Positions 7,998-20,925 of a stretch of 27,099 nucleotides of DNA are shown here, piece after piece. How positions within the stretch are numbered: position 1 is the first letter of the stretch; each line of letters begins with the position of its first letter. The translations under genes were made by a program, and so were the position numbers. The DNA comes from a virus. The stretch lies in the IMG/VR virus record IMGVR_UViG_3300035698_009787, positions 1 to 27,099 of that record, one strand, 5' to 3'. The notes beneath the pieces were generated by a model. The model was given only the letters and a program-made list of their open reading frames with translations. It was not told the DNA's origin and made no database searches.

Positions 7998-8024
7998 ATC
8001 TGTGAAAGATTATTTATCACAGAT
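7998..8024. promoter_or_regulatory. 27-bp palindrome, copy A (putative operator)
   Basis: ATCTGTGA-N11-TCACAGAT, with perfect 8-bp arms, lies in the gap between two leftward genes (8034 end, 7964 start). Related copies are at 15301, 15617 and 17276. It could be an operator for a dimeric phage regulator or, in the transcript, an 8-bp hairpin. Confidence 0.6.
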
Positions 8025-13681: not shown

Positions 13682-14575
13682 TTACTTATTCTCCCGCACG
13701 TAGATTACCAGAGGAGTTGGGCTGTTTTGCTCATCGTTATGACTCACCTTGAATACCTTACAGAAGCGCTCTTGGGTAGAATAATCCAAGTCGTTGTAAT
13801 GGATCCGTATTATGCTGCAGCCTCTAAGTTCCTTTTTTCTGGCTTGAACCTCTTCCAGCGCATTTGCTGTGTTCATAGCCTTAACCTGCGCATCAAACTC
13901 TGCTCTTGTAAAGGCTGCATATCTTCTTGCTCTGAACTCTTCTGCTCCTGCAAAGGCTGCATCTCTTCTTACTCTGAACTCTTCCCTCTCTTCTCTCTCT
14001 TCCAGCGTTACTATCTCAGCAATTCTGCGGTGTAGCAAGCGACAAAACATATTGAATCTATCAAGCCATAACTTTTCGCTTTCTGTACCTCTTTGCGTGA
14101 GGTAACTGTCAGTAATCGCTTTCAATGCTCTCCACTCAGTACAACATACTCCGTTAGGGCCTTGTAATGGGCAGATACAATTTGGTTGTGTGTTACCATA
14201 GTAATGACAGAATGAACAGTTTCTCTGACCTCCACCATACCTAAACCATTCATACGCATCTGCAGCTGTCTCAAACTGCACATCCCACTTCTTTTCTGCT
14301 TCATGTTTCACGCTTTGTGTTAACTCTTTCATGGTTTGTTTCTCCTCTTGTTTTGGTTGTTCATCAAGTATAACGAACTTTATCCCACTTGTAGTTACCA
14401 GCGCATGTATAGCTGGTTTACTGCTGAAGTCAATACCAAAAAAGCTGAGCTCTGCATTATCTTGTGCTTTCTTAAAGTGTTGATGAAGTAGTTCTTCTGT
14501 TGCTGTTATCCTCTCATTTTTAGCTGGTGTTCTGTACTTCGGATTATTGTAGTCAGGTGTATTTGGTATTGGCAT
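13682..14575 (-). CDS. Cys-rich CCTEWRA-motif protein with repeat-rich tail
   Basis: A 297-residue multi-part protein. Residues ~1-80 are an N-terminal segment with a beta-strand core (KPAIHALVTTSGIKFVILDE). At ~110-160 lies the Cys core CSFCHYY, CICPL, CCTEWRALKAI, matching the protein at 12723-13094. At ~185-235 there is a charged repeat (EEFRVRRDAAFAGA / EEFRARRYAAFTRA). The C-terminal ~50 residues are beta-rich. An internal ATG at 14332 (residue 82) has GAGGAG ahead of it, so a second, shorter product starting MKELTQSVKHEAEK is possible. Probably zinc-binding; function unknown. Confidence 0.6.
   Translation of the reverse strand: MPIPNTPDYNNPKYRTPAKNERITATEELLHQHFKKAQDNAELSFFGIDFSSKPAIHALVTTSGIKFVILDEQPKQEEKQTMKELTQSVKHEAEKKWDVQFETAADAYEWFRYGGGQRNCSFCHYYGNTQPNCICPLQGPNGVCCTEWRALKAITDSYLTQRGTESEKLWLDRFNMFCRLLHRRIAEIVTLEEREEREEFRVRRDAAFAGAEEFRARRYAAFTRAEFDAQVKAMNTANALEEVQARKKELRGCSIIRIHYNDLDYSTQERFCKVFKVSHNDEQNSPTPLVIYVRENK
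13902..13985 (-). repeat. Tandem 42-bp repeat inside a coding region
   Basis: Two adjacent copies (13902-13943 and 13944-13985) differ at a few positions and encode 14-residue units of the form EEFRxRRxAAFxxA in the protein at 13682-14575. A recent internal duplication is likely. Confidence 0.7.
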
Positions 14576-14589
14576 TAGTTCCTCTCTTG

Positions 14590-14808
14590 TTACTTAGTGA
14601 ATGTTTTTAGCGTCATCCGCACTGCCTTAGCTACCTCACCTCGCCAATGACTCATATTGTTGAGAACATATAGACACTGAACTCTCAACTCTTCTCCGGT
14701 CATGGTTATGCCTGCCTGTGCATAGTTGATGGCATAGTTCAGACTCTTCGCATGACGGTTGTCTACAATGGTTCGTAGAGCCTCACGGACGGTACTTTCA
14801 CTGGTCAT
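14590..14808 (-). CDS. Small hypothetical protein
   Basis: A 72-residue helical protein beginning MTSESTVREALRTIVDNRHA. The ATG with AAAGGAGAGTGTG before it was chosen; a longer reading would cross the small membrane gene that overlaps its start by 11 nt. No family recognised. Confidence 0.6.
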   Translation of the reverse strand: MTSESTVREALRTIVDNRHAKSLNYAINYAQAGITMTGEELRVQCLYVLNNMSHWRGEVAKAVRMTLKTFTK

Positions 14809-14908
14809 CACACTCTCCTTTATTATACTTCCGTTCACACTTACGAATGGTATCGAGGGCAGTCCATCCACCCCACACGAGACATAATAGTATTAAGATG
14901 TTTAGCAT
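14798..14908 (-). CDS. Very small membrane protein (36 aa)
   Basis: MLNILILLCLVWGGWTALDT is one short hydrophobic span followed by a charged tail with two cysteines (KCERKYNKGECDD). AAAAGGAAAGGCTAAC precedes the ATG and the 3' end overlaps the next gene by 11 nt. One of several tiny membrane peptides in this operon; function unknown. Confidence 0.6.
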   Translation of the reverse strand: MLNILILLCLVWGGWTALDTIRKCERKYNKGECDDQ

Positions 14909-14950
14909 GTTAGCCTTTCCTTTTATAATCCTACAGTTTGCATTACCTCA

Positions 14951-15175
14951 TCAGTTGGGGTCTTTCATCACTTCATCAAAGGCATTTAAGAAGGCTTTAA
15001 CACCATGTTTCCGAATCATACCTGAGACTTCAATGAAGAGTTCGCAACCTTCTTCTGCAAGTTTGTTTGCATCAAGAGTTCTTATTTCACTATCATCACC
15101 GGTTGAAATTTTTGCTTCTTTACATCCTTCTATTATACCTTTTGCAAGTTCTACATACTCATTTTTCTCTTTCAT
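14951..15175 (-). CDS. Small hypothetical protein, first after a strong promoter
   Basis: A 74-residue, acidic, helical protein (MKEKNEYVELAKGIIEGCKE...). It is the first of the main run of leftward genes behind the promoter at 15234-15262, with GAGGAAATAAACT before the ATG. First-position genes in phage early operons are often host-takeover factors; that is inference only. Confidence 0.65.
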   Translation of the reverse strand: MKEKNEYVELAKGIIEGCKEAKISTGDDSEIRTLDANKLAEEGCELFIEVSGMIRKHGVKAFLNAFDEVMKDPN

Positions 15176-15233
15176 AGTTTATTTCCTCACTGTTAAGAGT
15201 GTTAATGTTATCCTTTCTTAATACCACATATAC

Positions 15234-15262
15234 AATATAATACATTAAATATGTAATGTCAA
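15234..15262 (-). promoter_or_regulatory. Strong leftward promoter
   Basis: On the minus strand TTGACA - 17 bp - TATATT: a perfect -35 and a five-of-six -10 at ideal spacing, 59 nt upstream of the ATG at 15175. The spacer contains an inverted repeat TACAT-N5-ATGTA that could be an operator. It is the likely start of the long early operon. Confidence 0.75.
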
Positions 15263-15300
15263 GACAGTTCTCTCACACCATCGAAAAAGCACATTGTTGC

Positions 15301-15327
15301 ATCTGTGTTAAATTATTTATCGCAGAC
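15301..15327. promoter_or_regulatory. 27-bp palindrome, copy B (degenerate)
   Basis: ATCTGTGT-N11-TCGCAGAC, with the arms partly decayed relative to the other copies but the same spacing and the same right inner end (TTATTTA). It lies just upstream of the strong leftward promoter and just after the stop of the 37-aa gene. In the transcript it also forms CTGTGT/ACACAG. Confidence 0.5.
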
Positions 15328-15333
15328 ACAGGT

Positions 15334-15447
15334 TTACTTCTTCTTGGCCGCTGGTCTGTTTCCGATATAATAGCCAATCATAAGTACTATAAGTATACCT
15401 ACAACGACCGTTATGATAGTTCCTGCTACCATCCAATCATGTGGCAT
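15334..15447 (-). CDS. Very small membrane protein (37 aa)
   Basis: MPHDWMVAGTIITVVVGILI continues as a single transmembrane span and ends with a basic tail (NRPAAKKK), which predicts the C-terminus inside. GGGAG lies 5 nt before the ATG; an in-frame ATG four codons upstream lacks a site. A third small single-span peptide in this operon, after those at 14798 and 3536. Confidence 0.65.
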   Translation of the reverse strand: MPHDWMVAGTIITVVVGILIVLMIGYYIGNRPAAKKK

Positions 15448-15474
15448 AGTGTCTCCCATCTTAGTGTGAATTAA

Positions 15475-15491
15475 CATGAACTATGTTCATG
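15475..15491. repeat. 17-bp perfect palindrome
   Basis: CATGAAC-TAT-GTTCATG lies between the stop of the 29-aa gene and the start of the 37-aa gene. It could be a regulator site or a short transcript hairpin; no T-run follows. Confidence 0.5.
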
Positions 15492-15497
15492 CTTGCA

Positions 15498-15587
15498 TTA
15501 CTCAATAAGAGCATTCTGAGCATCATAGATACAGTTGCAATCATCCTCATTCATATGGAACTCTGATACTACTCTAATCTTAGGCAT
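15498..15587 (-). CDS. Very small acidic protein (29 aa)
   Basis: MPKIRVVSEFHMNEDDCNCI followed by YDAQNALIE. It has a strong AGGAGGAG site before the ATG. Palindrome copy C sits 30 bp upstream, between this gene and the AT-rich control core, so it may be under that operator. A CNC pair is present. Small size limits confidence. Confidence 0.5.
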   Translation of the reverse strand: MPKIRVVSEFHMNEDDCNCIYDAQNALIE

Positions 15588-15616
15588 GGCGCATCTCCTC
15601 CTATTGTAATGTAAGT

Positions 15617-15643
15617 GTCTGTGATAATTAATTTATCACAGGT
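15617..15643. promoter_or_regulatory. 27-bp palindrome, copy C
   Basis: GTCTGTGA-N11-TCACAGGT with a central TAATTAATTTA. Located just upstream of the 29-aa leftward gene and ~27 bp from the left arm of the 31-bp inverted repeat. Confidence 0.6.
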
Positions 15644-15669
15644 GAACCTCCGGCGAACGTCGGCGAGAG

Positions 15670-15700
15670 TCTATATACATAGGTCTATGTATCTATTACC
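15670..15700 (+). repeat. 31-bp inverted repeat, left arm
   Basis: Starts TCTATATACATAGG and ends ATCTATTACC. It contains the 18-bp palindrome ATACATAG-GT-CTATGTAT. It matches the reverse complement of 15891-15921 except at one base. Confidence 0.8.
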
Positions 15701-15890
15701 TCCGCCGTCAGGTAAAAATTGAAAATATTTGTTCTTAGTTCATAATATTAAATAATTATTATATATAAATAAACTAAGAACTAAACCTCCTTTTCTTTTT
15801 AACTAGTTAAATAAAAGTTTTACTAGTTAAAATTAATTAACTATACATTTCAATATCATAATATAAAATGTCAATTATCGAGGACTCATG

Positions 15891-15921
15891 GGTAATAGAT
15901 TCATAGACCTATGTATATAGA
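15891..15921 (-). repeat. 31-bp inverted repeat, right arm
   Basis: Reverse complement of the left arm at 15670-15700 with a single mismatch (A for T after CTATG). It also contains the self-complementary core CATAG-AC-CTATG. Confidence 0.8.
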
Positions 15922-15978
15922 TCTGTGCCATCACTCGCCGTCAACTTCCAGCAAAAGTTATCGAGTTCCTCGTAAGGT

Positions 15979-16143
15979 TTACCCCTTTCTATTTTTAATT
16001 CTATCAGTGCATATCTCTATAAGTATACGCAACTGTTCTTCTGTTAAAGATTCTGGAAATGCATTTTGAATACCTGTCAAAAGCATTTGTGTCCAATTAC
16101 CACCACAAGTAGTACAGTGGTCTAAAAATTCTTTTCTCTTAAT
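15979..16143 (-). CDS. Conserved small Cys protein with apparent ATT start
   Basis: A 54-codon open frame: initiator then KRKEFLDHCTTCGGNWTQM, followed by LLTGIQNAFPESLTEEQLRI. The motif FLDHCttCGGNW..MLLtGI is one I recognise from small phage proteins, normally beginning M-K-x-x-E-F-L. Here the position of that Met is an ATT codon (16141-16143). A TGA lies nine codons before it and no ATG, GTG or TTG lies between. Either ATT is used, as in infC genes, or the start has mutated. No good ribosome binding site is seen. The gene follows 16178-16600 by 34 nt. Confidence 0.5.
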   Translation of the reverse strand: MKRKEFLDHCTTCGGNWTQMLLTGIQNAFPESLTEEQLRILIEICTDRIKNRKG

Positions 16144-16177
16144 GGTGTAAGGTTGGGTTCCGAATCACTCGTAAGAT

Positions 16178-16600
16178 TTACTCCTGTTCGAGTTTCAATT
16201 TACCTTCTGCGTGCAGTCTATTAATTTCATTTAACTGCTCGTCTGTCAACCTAGAGATTAAATCTTCTGGTTTTGCGTCTTTCAGGTCTTCTTTCACAAC
16301 TCTCGTTGATGCCTGCCGACCGATAAGGTCTTTCACGTTGACTGTTATTCCTTTCTCACCCAACTCAAGACATTCTTTCAAGAAGACTGTATCTTTTTTT
16401 CTTAGTCTAATTGCAATCTTGCGAACGGCTTCTTGCTGTGCGAGTGTAATCAGTTCGTCTGTTGTAATATCACTATAATCATAATGAAGAATAACATAAC
16501 CCTCGGCTTGACCTGATTTCGTGTTGACAGTTATAACCTTACCTGTCGATTTTACTTGCACATCTTCAGGTTTCACGTCTACTGTTTTCTTATCACTCAT
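16178..16600 (-). CDS. Hypothetical protein, first gene behind a divergent promoter
   Basis: A 140-residue soluble protein beginning MSDKKTVDVKPEDVQVKSTG. A beta-rich first half (KVITVNTKSGQAEGYVILHY) is followed by helices (ELITLAQQEAVRKIAIRLRK) and a helical end (RLTDEQLNEINRLHAEGKLK). Some overlap in style with phage regulators, but there is no clear DNA-binding motif. It is the first gene after the promoter at 16721-16749, with a ~115-nt leader. Function unknown. Confidence 0.65.
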   Translation of the reverse strand: MSDKKTVDVKPEDVQVKSTGKVITVNTKSGQAEGYVILHYDYSDITTDELITLAQQEAVRKIAIRLRKKDTVFLKECLELGEKGITVNVKDLIGRQASTRVVKEDLKDAKPEDLISRLTDEQLNEINRLHAEGKLKLEQE

Positions 16601-16720
16601 AATATACCTACTCTCACCTTAAAATGGTTTGAATTAATGGTTTATGAATGACTCGAAACCCTTAATACTCCGTTATTGAATTGTAAAAAGAACATTTGAA
16701 TCCTAGCACATCTTAACCCT

Positions 16721-16749
16721 AGTATAACACATTGTGATCTGTCTGTCAA
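16721..16749 (-). promoter_or_regulatory. Strong leftward promoter of a divergent pair
   Basis: On the minus strand TTGACA - 17 bp - TATACT, both hexamers near consensus. It drives the gene at 16178-16600. The -35 is 35 bp from the -35 of a plus-strand promoter. Confidence 0.75.
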
Positions 16750-16784
16750 GAGAAATATTTTTCTAGTTGCATATTCATTTCATA

Positions 16785-16813
16785 TTGACATGTTATATAC
16801 TAGCAAATATCAT
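16785..16813 (+). promoter_or_regulatory. Rightward promoter of a divergent pair
   Basis: TTGACA - 17 bp - TATCAT, five of six at -10. No protein gene follows closely, so the transcript would run through ~600 nt of leader to the late operon or make an untranslated RNA. A GTAACATGTTAC palindrome (16835-16846) lies near the expected start of the RNA. Confidence 0.6.
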
Positions 16814-16940
16814 TCCAAAAAGAGGTGATTCAACGTAACATGTTACAGGAGAACAACATACAGATCATTGTGTTACTCCTCTATTGTAATGTACTCTAGG
16901 TATGTTTGTGTCAATATAGGACAAAGTGTCCCAGATTGAA

Positions 16941-17000
16941 ACATAAGTGAACATAAGCGAGCGTAACGTATGTGCAGGTGAATACATACACGTAACATTA
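16941..17000 (+). repeat. Periodic ACATAAGTGA-like repeats
   Basis: Decamers ACATAAGTGA, ACATAAGCGA, GCGTAACGTA run in tandem at 16941-16970 and decay into further 5-nt GTAA/GTGA-like units up to the CGTAAC near 17000. Similar in style to the array at 11135-11311, but on the opposite strand. Confidence 0.5.
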
Positions 17001-17275
17001 GAATATACAGAGTATGAGTGTAAGTGAACATCCGTTCATACCTATCACTGGTGCATAAACTCCTAGATGAACACGTACCCACGCTCACCCGCACTCGCAC
17101 CCACCCGTGTACGCAAGCGCACACGTACGCATGAGAGCAGACACCCGCCCTAGGGGAAACGCTAGACGTCTTATATAGCGGTACACCCCAATCCAAATTT
17201 TCTGAGAATTTCAACCTCGCCATGTGGCTACGCCGTCACCGCTCAGATGTGGATGCACTGCTTAGATGTGGGTAC

Positions 17276-17302
17276 ATCTGTGAAAAATAATTTATCACAG
17301 AC
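17276..17302. promoter_or_regulatory. 27-bp palindrome, copy D
   Basis: ATCTGTGA-N11-TCACAGAC, 57 bp upstream of the -35 of the late rightward promoter. Same design as the copies at 7998, 15301 and 15617. Confidence 0.6.
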
Positions 17303-17358
17303 GGACGCTGCAGACGCTCAGAGTGGCCACAGCGGCGAAAGATAATCCAAAAATAGTC

Positions 17359-17387
17359 TTGTGGCGAGTGCGTGTATGTATTATATT
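17359..17387 (+). promoter_or_regulatory. Late-operon promoter candidate
   Basis: TTGTGG - 17 bp - TATATT, with a good -10 and a weak -35, placed 28 bp before the ATG of the TerS-like gene. A weak -35 would fit a promoter that needs an activator. Confidence 0.5.
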
Positions 17388-17415
17388 GTATATATACAGG
17401 TTAAGGAGACTAGCA

Positions 17416-17958
17416 ATGAAAGGTGTTCCAGAGGACAGAAAGTACCAGATACAAGCGGTGCGCAACCGTCACCATGAGATTGTGCGCCTCGTTGTGTTGG
17501 GCTGGGACAATAAGAGAATCGCTAAGCAGCTCGGTATCGGCGCACAGAATGTTTCAGATGTAAAGAACAGTCCGCTTGGTGCCCGTAGCATTATGATACT
17601 CCAAGCGAGACGTGATGCCAATACAGTTTCTTTAGCGAAGATGCTGGAGAATGATGTTCCTAAAAACTTCGACCTCATTATGCAAGTTCGTGATGGGAGT
17701 ATAAAGTCAGACTCTGATCTATACATACCAATTCAACTCCGTATGTTAGCAGCAACCAAACTACTCGACAGAGAAGGTTACGGGCCTACTAAGAGCGTAA
17801 CCGGCAAGTTCGTACATGCTTTCCTCACCGGTGACGATATAGAAGATATTAAAAAGAGAGCTGATGTAGCCAGTGCTAATGCAAGTCAACAGGCTCGCAT
17901 TGATGGACTGGAAGTGGCAGAAGCTGAAGTTATTAAACAGGAGCGGGTGCCCGCTTAA
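17416..17958 (+). CDS. Putative terminase small subunit (HTH protein)
   Basis: A 180-residue protein. Residues ~15-50 form a helix-turn-helix (HHEIVRLVVLGWDNKRIAKQ, LGIGAQNVSDVKNS), followed by a long helical region and IQLRMLAATKLLDREGYGP at ~96-116. This arrangement (HTH, SplG.....l...RD....., helical hairpin, lkAa..iLdRaGyGp) is shared by TerS-like phage proteins that select DNA for packaging. As the first late gene it could also be a DNA-binding regulator. The ATG at 17416 follows AAGGAGACTAGCA; a GTG 31 codons earlier would overlap the promoter and was rejected. Confidence 0.65.
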   Translation: MKGVPEDRKYQIQAVRNRHHEIVRLVVLGWDNKRIAKQLGIGAQNVSDVKNSPLGARSIMILQARRDANTVSLAKMLENDVPKNFDLIMQVRDGSIKSDSDLYIPIQLRMLAATKLLDREGYGPTKSVTGKFVHAFLTGDDIEDIKKRADVASANASQQARIDGLEVAEAEVIKQERVPA

Positions 17959-17967
17959 GGAGGCAAG

Positions 17968-18420
17968 ATGAAGTTCTTGAAACGACAATGGCTTAGTTGT
18001 TTGATCCTAGCCGTAGTTAGTATTGGAATGTATGGAGCATTGCAAGCGGCCACTATAAACATTACCGGCAGCACTATGAATGGTCGGACGTGTTATGCTG
18101 ATAGCTTGACAGCAGTTGGCGACTTTGATACACTTGAGCTAGTAAGTTTCTCCGGTACGCTTGAAACTATACAAGAGGTTACATTTCAAATTACTGTTAC
18201 AAATATTAATACAAGTGTAGATGTTCGAGGTGAAGGCTCTCTTGATGGTGTTAACTGGTGGAATCTTGATGATACTGGTAGCGATACACAATACCTAACT
18301 GACGATACAAGCGCTATTAGATATTATGGTTTAGCTAGCGTAGTGTATATTCGACTGGTGTGGACAGCTGAAGCTGGCGGCACTGATGCTATTATAGCGG
18401 TAATAGTAAAGGCAGGTTAA
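17968..18420 (+). CDS. Exported beta-sheet protein with Sec signal peptide
   Basis: A 150-residue protein. Residues 1-27 are a classical signal peptide: basic MKFLKRQW, a hydrophobic core LSCLILAVVSIGMYG, and an ALQAA cleavage-like end. The mature part is Thr/Asp-rich beta structure (FQITVTNINTSVDVRGEGSL, DGVNWWNLDD). No Cys after the signal, so it is not a lipoprotein. TAAGGAGG precedes the ATG. It is the first of three consecutive signal-peptide proteins in the late operon. Likely periplasmic, surface or virion-associated; no family recognised. Confidence 0.65.
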   Translation: MKFLKRQWLSCLILAVVSIGMYGALQAATINITGSTMNGRTCYADSLTAVGDFDTLELVSFSGTLETIQEVTFQITVTNINTSVDVRGEGSLDGVNWWNLDDTGSDTQYLTDDTSAIRYYGLASVVYIRLVWTAEAGGTDAIIAVIVKAG

Positions 18421-19380: not shown

Positions 19381-20925
19381 ATGATGACTAAACGTTCTAT
19401 ACCAGGCTGGTTATTCTTTACATTTACACTAGTACTAATCTGTATTGCTTACGTACAAGGTGACGGTGAAGTAAAGCACTTAAGTGGTGGTGATGTAGCT
19501 CTCAATAGTCTTGACTCTACCTACATCAAAGATGCAAGTACTTCTTTTAGCGACCTGAGTAGTGCTGGTGGTGCTTATACTATGGTACTCAAGTGGAATC
19601 CAACAACCAGCAAATGGTCAGCACAAGCTGATAGTACTGCTGGTGTTGGTGCTGGTCTTGACTCTACTAGCCTTGCTAATGACGGTGTAGGTAATGAAGA
19701 CCTGGTTGAAAATTCAGTCTCAACCCTCGAGATTCGTGATGCTACAATCGACTCTGAGGATGTGGCACCTACTGGTATTACGGCTTCTAACTTAGCTGCA
19801 GTCCTTCGTCATACTGGCTACATCACTACCGATAGTTTAAAAGTTGGTGACAATATATTTCTTGAAGATAGTATCCCTTTCCTCTTCGGCACTGGTCGAG
19901 ACCTTGAGAAGCATTATGATGGCACTTATGCTATGGAAATTCAGAGTCTCACTACAGATGCTTATTGGTGGTACCGTAACTCAAAAGCAGAGCATGTAGA
20001 CAACTCTGTCTGGCTGGCTCACCGGCTTGAAACTGACGGTGATAATACCCGTAGTGGCTTTGGTATTGAGACTAAGTTTAATGTAATAACCGATGCTACA
20101 CGTAACAGCACTGTCGTGTTCTATGGAACTGATGCTGGCACATGGGGCGCTGTGATGACCTTTGAAGGTCATAATGTTGGCTTCGGAACTAGTACACCTA
20201 AAGCCTCTAGTGTAACGTATGCTAAGGAAGTCTTATACTCTTTGGAGTATGTTCCTGCTGGAGAAGATTCTAGCTTAACTATCTCCATTGTTGATGGCGA
20301 GCCTGAGATTAATTTCTTTGCTAGTGATGGTGATACATGGAAGATTGTAAGTAACACCTCCGACCAGATGGTCATTTCTGGTGCTGATGATATTCTTCTT
20401 GGAACTGATGCTGTAATGCTAGCACCATCATTCAACGACTCATTAAAGAATCACCAGCCTACAATTTTATACCTCTACTGGACATCTGCTTTTGCTGATA
20501 GTATCTCCGCTAATGACTCACTTGATGTAATTATTACAGCTCAAAATCTTATTGGCAACCTTCAATCTGCTTTCATAATAAATGACCAGGGTGTAGAGGA
20601 GAAGGGTAGACTAATCATTGACGGTTATCTTCCTAACCCTCTTTCTACTCTTGATAGTCTTGGTATGCATATTTGGACTGAGACTACTGACGATAGTGAC
20701 TATATAAACGTCTACGTCCATGATGACTCTGTAGCAACAGACTTCAAGCATGTAGCTATTGACTCTGCTGTGACTCAGCATTCAGCAGTTGCTCGGACCA
20801 AGTGGTATATATCATTAGCTGTCGGCGGTATTGTTGGTGGAGAGTTCAGAGTGATAACAGACTTTACTAGCCTAAGTGACACTGTGTTTATTGGAAGACC
20901 TAGACTATTTATAACTAATCACTAG
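19381..20925 (+). CDS. Large signal-peptide tail-fibre-like protein
   Basis: A 514-residue protein. An N-terminal hydrophobic segment GWLFFTFTLVLICIAYVQG is a signal peptide or anchor, followed by DGEVKHLSGGDVALNSLDST, clearly related to the previous gene. Later phrases such as LKWNPTTSKWSAQADST, DIPFLFGTGRDLEKHYDG-like text (actually SIPFLFGTGRDLEKHYDG), NVGFGTSTPK and a C-terminal beta domain are characteristic of fibre or adhesin proteins. No catalytic motif. Likely host recognition or surface attachment. Paralogy of the two N-termini suggests a common export or docking segment. Confidence 0.65.
   Translation: MMTKRSIPGWLFFTFTLVLICIAYVQGDGEVKHLSGGDVALNSLDSTYIKDASTSFSDLSSAGGAYTMVLKWNPTTSKWSAQADSTAGVGAGLDSTSLANDGVGNEDLVENSVSTLEIRDATIDSEDVAPTGITASNLAAVLRHTGYITTDSLKVGDNIFLEDSIPFLFGTGRDLEKHYDGTYAMEIQSLTTDAYWWYRNSKAEHVDNSVWLAHRLETDGDNTRSGFGIETKFNVITDATRNSTVVFYGTDAGTWGAVMTFEGHNVGFGTSTPKASSVTYAKEVLYSLEYVPAGEDSSLTISIVDGEPEINFFASDGDTWKIVSNTSDQMVISGADDILLGTDAVMLAPSFNDSLKNHQPTILYLYWTSAFADSISANDSLDVIITAQNLIGNLQSAFIINDQGVEEKGRLIIDGYLPNPLSTLDSLGMHIWTETTDDSDYINVYVHDDSVATDFKHVAIDSAVTQHSAVARTKWYISLAVGGIVGGEFRVITDFTSLSDTVFIGRPRLFITNH

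Follow-up and report, generated by a model that had tools for sequence, protein, structure and literature searches.

A long inverted repeat around the least stable DNA of a phage early region: a candidate replication origin whose layout recurs in distant relatives

Genomic context of the element

The window, that is, the whole stretch of DNA analysed here, is a 27,099-base IMG/VR virus record and represents a fragment only. Its leftward genes encode an exonuclease, a Sak4-like protein, a PD-(D/E)XK nuclease, a dCMP deaminase, a DNA ligase and a ParB_N protein with a DNA methylase; in this last gene (80–1372, minus strand), a ParB N-terminal domain is fused to an N6/N4 DNA methylase. The rightward genes encode a lectin-like protein, a BNR protein and an endolysin, and a terminase-like sequence is located at ~26.9 kb, 11 kb from the element described below. 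The genes switch strand between 16600 and 17416; this divergent region of 816 bp is apparently free of genes and has sigma-70-like sites on both strands, at 16749 (minus) and 16785 (plus). The listed ORF at 16873–17223 is of low complexity and looks like a chance frame.

The element, close to the start of the early (replication) operon, occupies a non-coding gap of 391 bp (15588–15978), the largest among the 33 listed gaps between leftward genes and ORFs. No ORF of at least 60 aa overlaps the element, and the small ORFs that flank the gap (15498–15587 and 15979–16086) both run leftward and are hence non-divergent. Two short sequences recur in the surroundings. CTTACGAG is found at 15976 and 16175 (minus strand), just past the stops of two small ORFs that are neighbours and also resemble each other at the C-terminus, and ATATACAATATAATACAT, an 18-nt perfect inverted repeat, lies at 15228–15245 and 17376–17393, where its copies cover promoter-like sequence before one leftward and one rightward gene.

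Inverted repeat and AT-rich core

The arms of the element, 15670–15700 and 15891–15921, are complementary at 30 of 31 positions and are separated by 190 bp. When they are lengthened to 15651–15700 and 15891–15940, pairing is found at 40 of 50 positions (80%). The repeat scored 28, against no more than 13 in 300 dinucleotide shuffles of the 391-bp gap, and it is the top long-range stem of the whole window (28.5, whereas 40 shuffles of the window gave 16.0 at best). The inverted repeat is therefore real, and chance is ruled out.

The core between the arms (15701–15890, 21% GC) is the proposed unwinding element. Nearest-neighbour energies make it the least stable duplex of the 27-kb window at the 50–150 bp scale, with a z of 5.3 at 150 bp compared to 3.2 for the next-ranked place. 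As a property of the sequence, this is the minimal duplex stability by which the unwinding element of a phage theta replication origin would be recognised, with the caveat that non-coding gaps are AT-rich anyway, so that a stability minimum is favoured there.

The left arm contains a perfect 18-bp palindrome, ATACATAGGTCTATGTAT (15675–15692), and the right arm a copy with one mismatch (15899–15916); within the window, this palindrome is confined to the two arms. The left palindrome is modestly unusual (p 0.002 with mononucleotide and 0.025 with dinucleotide shuffles), and the right one is not significant against shuffles. Inside the core lie an inner stem pair (15728–15743/15769–15784) and the palindrome TTTAACTAGTTAAA (15798–15811) with a near copy at 15818–15831. 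The sequence-only reading had described a 31-bp inverted repeat with a 190-bp AT-rich, gene-free core, a palindrome of 12–18 bp in each arm, a 10-bp stem pair, TTTAACTAGTTAAA and a near copy, and CGGCGAG with its complement outside the 31-bp arms (found at 15661 and 15934); every part of this description was confirmed.

The motif TTAACTA occurs, in both orientations, four times in a 45-bp stretch of the core (15799–15843, a cluster that takes in the palindrome at 15798–15811) out of six copies in the window, an iteron-like arrangement. Four copies were reached in none of 5000 core shuffles, but some 7-mer reached at least four copies in 22 of 2000, so that the cluster is notable without being overwhelming. 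TGACGGCG lies in the core on the minus strand (15703–15710); a second copy (15936–15943) reaches into the extended right arm at its outer end, and the third and last in the window is at 17231–17238.

A separate family, the 23-bp palindrome CTGTGATAAATnATTTATCACAG and its variants, occupies four sites (8000–8022, 15303–15325, 15619–15641 and 17278–17300), all intergenic, where 0.01 matches would be expected by chance. The copy at 15619–15641 is 9 bp from the extended left arm. The 23-mer had no match in viral contigs, and it is possibly a phage operator or a processing hairpin.

Recurrence of the layout in distant relatives

No DNA relatives of the window were present in the collections searched. 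Positions 14000–18000 had no match as a DNA query in phages, and the element itself, compared with phages and plasmids at E up to 10, gave short, mostly AT-rich matches only. Anchoring in viral contigs with the proteins of 16178–16600, 17323–17958, the ligase, 19381–20925 and Sak4 led to no confirmed relative; neither did the 13682–14575 protein in genomes, nor tblastn in phages with 19381–20925, 13682–14575, 16178–16600 and 17416–17958. A protein search with the window nuclease, however, reached three relatives: Desulfofustis phage MD01 (OP947158), Microcystis phage Mel-JY34 (PP438425) and ctMlz233 (MW202489). The nuclease and a ParB-like methylase are present in all four lineage members; the methylase relatives in MD01 and Mel-JY34 were found by tblastn, and ctMlz233 was reached through Mel-JY34. 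The three whole records also have in common a DNA polymerase, a DUF3987-type primase and further genes, and the replication proteins within the lineage are mostly 22–54% identical.

In each of the four genomes, the strongest long-range stem is located in the early region. The stems lie at 43071–43096/43392–43417 in MD01 (24 of 26 positions paired), 44129–44156/44264–44291 in Mel-JY34 (25 of 28) and 38405–38472/38546–38613 in ctMlz233 (53 of 68), and every one exceeds all 40 shuffles of its own genome, that of MD01 by a small margin (21.0, with 19.5 as the shuffle maximum). The least stable 50 bp of each genome lie between these arms in four of four cases, and the least stable 50, 70 and 100 bp all fall inside the core (rank 1 in each), although two of these genomes are ~60% GC. 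At 150 bp, the MD01 core ranks only sixth. Arms, stability minimum and place thus recur together in all four genomes.

When the same element was sought in relatives, as had been proposed, its layout was found in all three examined, and its letters were not. The 18-bp arm palindromes were not found in the three relatives, their elements contain no palindrome of at least 7 bp per half, and the TTAACTA repeats are absent from them. MD01 has a GGATAATATCCCTAGT-type repeat in three copies, and no clear iteron-like repeats were seen in Mel-JY34 or ctMlz233. The architecture is kept across the lineage; the letters are not. Small annotated hypothetical CDSs overlap the element in MD01 and ctMlz233, so that 'gene-free' is our interpretation there, and in ctMlz233 frames of 304 and 170 aa extend to the element edges. 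In MD01, a terminator-like hairpin with a T run (42862–42903) is found ~150 bp upstream of the element, and past it a 21-nt direct repeat at 42946 and 43014.

Comparison with control genomes

To quantify the layout, we asked whether the 50-bp stability minimum of a genome lies between the arms of its top stem. This arrangement was framed after the window and MD01 had been seen; Mel-JY34 and ctMlz233 were scored for stability later. It was found in four of four lineage members and in one of 21 controls (Fisher p 0.0004). The controls comprised seven phage records (L021, L022 and L025–L029, with L025 covered to 50,000 of 50,490 bases) and 14 loci reached with a pol-exonuclease anchor, in which the window's nuclease was not found. 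The single positive control is one of the 14 loci, L011, whose stem is weak (12.0). Because these loci are fragments, the seven phage records are the fairer control, and none of them shows the arrangement (p 0.003). Two further records, L023 and L024, have the length and gene list of L021 in rotated form and were left out of the count as repeats.

The top stem of L027, an unrelated phage, scores 21.0, the same as that of MD01, with the stability minimum ~117 bases outside the stem; this top inverted repeat (119–446) stands at the beginning of the record. L021 (MW202524), a more distant phage, has the nuclease-AAA pair but a different replication set, and the layout is absent from it. Its second-ranked inverted repeat (35127–35142/35329–35344), in a gap close to repA, may be a weaker counterpart of the element.

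A candidate replication origin

We put the probability that the element is the replication origin of the phage, with an AT-rich unwinding core framed by foldback arms, at about one in two. An origin with an AT-rich unwinding element was among the suggestions of the sequence-only reading, and it gains real support from a core that is the stability minimum and from the layout in three of three distant relatives examined. We infer that in vivo the core would be melted either by an initiator or by the early operon, through its transcription and supercoiling. The arms could fold back on themselves as a cruciform or as a hairpin on one strand; alternatively, they might seat the initiator in mirror orientation. 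Folded or initiator-bound arms would then keep the bubble open for loading of the phage primase/helicase, presumably of the DUF3987 type seen in the three relatives, and of the DNA polymerase, allowing initiation.

Several findings count against an origin. Cumulative GC skew, proposed earlier as a pointer, switches within ~0.5 kb of the element in Mel-JY34 only; the switch is at the gene divergence, away from the element, in the window (17244–17246) and in MD01 (41467), and it is 4 kb off in ctMlz233. GC skew is thus no clean pointer to the element. No initiator gene was identified, and neither DnaA boxes nor an IHF site were found in the element with consensus patterns, which speaks against a DnaA- or IHF-dependent origin. 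The rank of MD01 at 150 bp, the lack of TTAACTA and arm palindromes in the relatives, the control stem in L027 that matches that of MD01, and the framing of the joint arrangement after two members were seen weigh in the same direction. No description of such a layout in phage origins was seen in the literature searched, and a search for Mel-JY34 gave no papers. The available portion of the MD01 paper contains none of the origin terms looked for, and its two mentions of inverted repeats both concern a host transposon (PMC10370329).

The main rival, to which we assign a clearly smaller share of belief, is that the early transcript contains a large structured RNA (a leader, a processed RNA or an RNase III substrate), whose long stem would be closed by the arms and whose three hairpins would come from the core. 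RNA of the sense strand folds far beyond shuffles in all four genomes (z −9.8 in the window, −9.7 in MD01, −7.0 in ctMlz233 and −4.2 in Mel-JY34) and better by z than the antisense in the three relatives. However, the antisense folds well in all four genomes and equally well in the window (z −10.4), and the core alone is unexceptional as RNA (z ~−3, like several other windows); the core minus strand ranked first as a fold with 25 shuffles, a result withdrawn with 400. Wobble mismatches favour the sense strand by 30 to 12 in gapped extended alignments (p 0.008), but the lean is 9 to 2 with strand-blind arms (p 0.065), 21 to 10 with wide arms (p 0.07) and 0 to 0 in the window's own 31-bp arms, and C-to-T damage on the sense strand could produce it as well. 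G-U pairing therefore leans to the sense strand without deciding between DNA and RNA. Rfam gave no window match at gathering scores and only a chance-level match nearby, no intrinsic terminator was found in 14500–17500, and no good leftward promoter was found at the border. An RNA also leaves the genome-wide stability minimum of the core unexplained.

A transcription-primed origin would join the two leading readings and is a more speculative idea than either. Here the sense RNA would pair arm to arm into the long stem, with the core kept open as an R-loop that provides the primer. If true, this would explain together the stability minimum, the wobble lean and a layout that outlives sequence similarity.

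The operator, packaging-site, invertible-segment and transposon readings are weaker than an origin. It seems unlikely, at nearly the same level as the transcription-primed origin, that a regulator bound to the two 18-bp palindromes and to sites in the core regulates the leftward early genes, perhaps through a loop. The restriction of that palindrome to the two arms and the adjoining second palindrome family at 15619–15641 would suit such a complex. Against it, the left palindrome alone is statistically notable, the elements of the relatives lack palindromes of this kind, the palindrome centres are 224 bp apart, which is no whole number of 10.5-bp turns, and no repressor was identified. The lysogeny-type operator envisaged from the sequence alone fared poorly, since neither an integrase nor a repressor turned up among the scanned proteins, the ORFs on either side do not diverge and the relatives have no arm palindromes.

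A packaging (pac/cos) site is improbable. In the three relatives, the element and the terminase side of the gene divergence are ~1.5–2.2 kb apart, but in the window the element stays with the early operon although the terminase-like sequence is 11 kb away, which argues against packaging. Equally improbable is a promoter segment flipped by a site-specific recombinase, as the sequence-only reading had also offered. The asymmetric, near-identical 31-bp arms in inverted orientation and the short gene-free core with weak promoter-like sites fit such a switch, yet a Pfam search of 50 proteins or ORFs of the window, a fragment with some doubtful or alternative frames, matched no recombinase family, and the less perfect arms of the relatives are unexpected for active recombination sites; inversion thus found no support. 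Least probable of all is a small non-autonomous transposon (MITE), which would account for terminal-repeat-like arms and an AT-rich core, but the arm patterns had no match in the viral or genome contigs of the collections scanned, no target-site duplication was seen by eye in the flanks, and unrelated letters occupy the same region in the three relatives.

In most uncultured phages the origin has escaped recognition, since the letters of origins are not conserved. In all four members of this lineage, the least stable DNA of the genome lies close to where the early operon begins and is enclosed by the strongest inverted repeat. If this layout marks origins, it would provide a sequence-independent way to locate them, together with a small testable DNA fragment.

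Comparison with known systems

GOLLD and ROOL are large RNAs that occur in phages. As large structured non-coding RNAs, they resemble what the element might encode as RNA, going by the part of their description available to us (PMC12286853), and differ in that the window has no Rfam match at gathering scores. Closer to the preferred reading as an origin is the 44-kb Bacillus phage SPP1, in which, in the sections consulted of PMC6316719, oriL and oriR pair repeats with an adjacent AT-rich unwinding region. The SPP1 repeats are direct and bound by gp38, with oriL inside gene 38 (PMC6316719, same sections). The element of the window differs in that its AT-rich part is enclosed by long inverted arms and lies in non-coding DNA, and no gp38-like gene was found. 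In OriS of Herpes simplex, as outlined in excerpts of PMC12543377, inverted initiator sites flank an AT-rich spacer and a hairpin forms in the unwound origin; the boxes are much smaller, the origin-binding protein is known and the virus is unrelated. By analogy, the element may work like Herpes simplex OriS without being a member of its kind.
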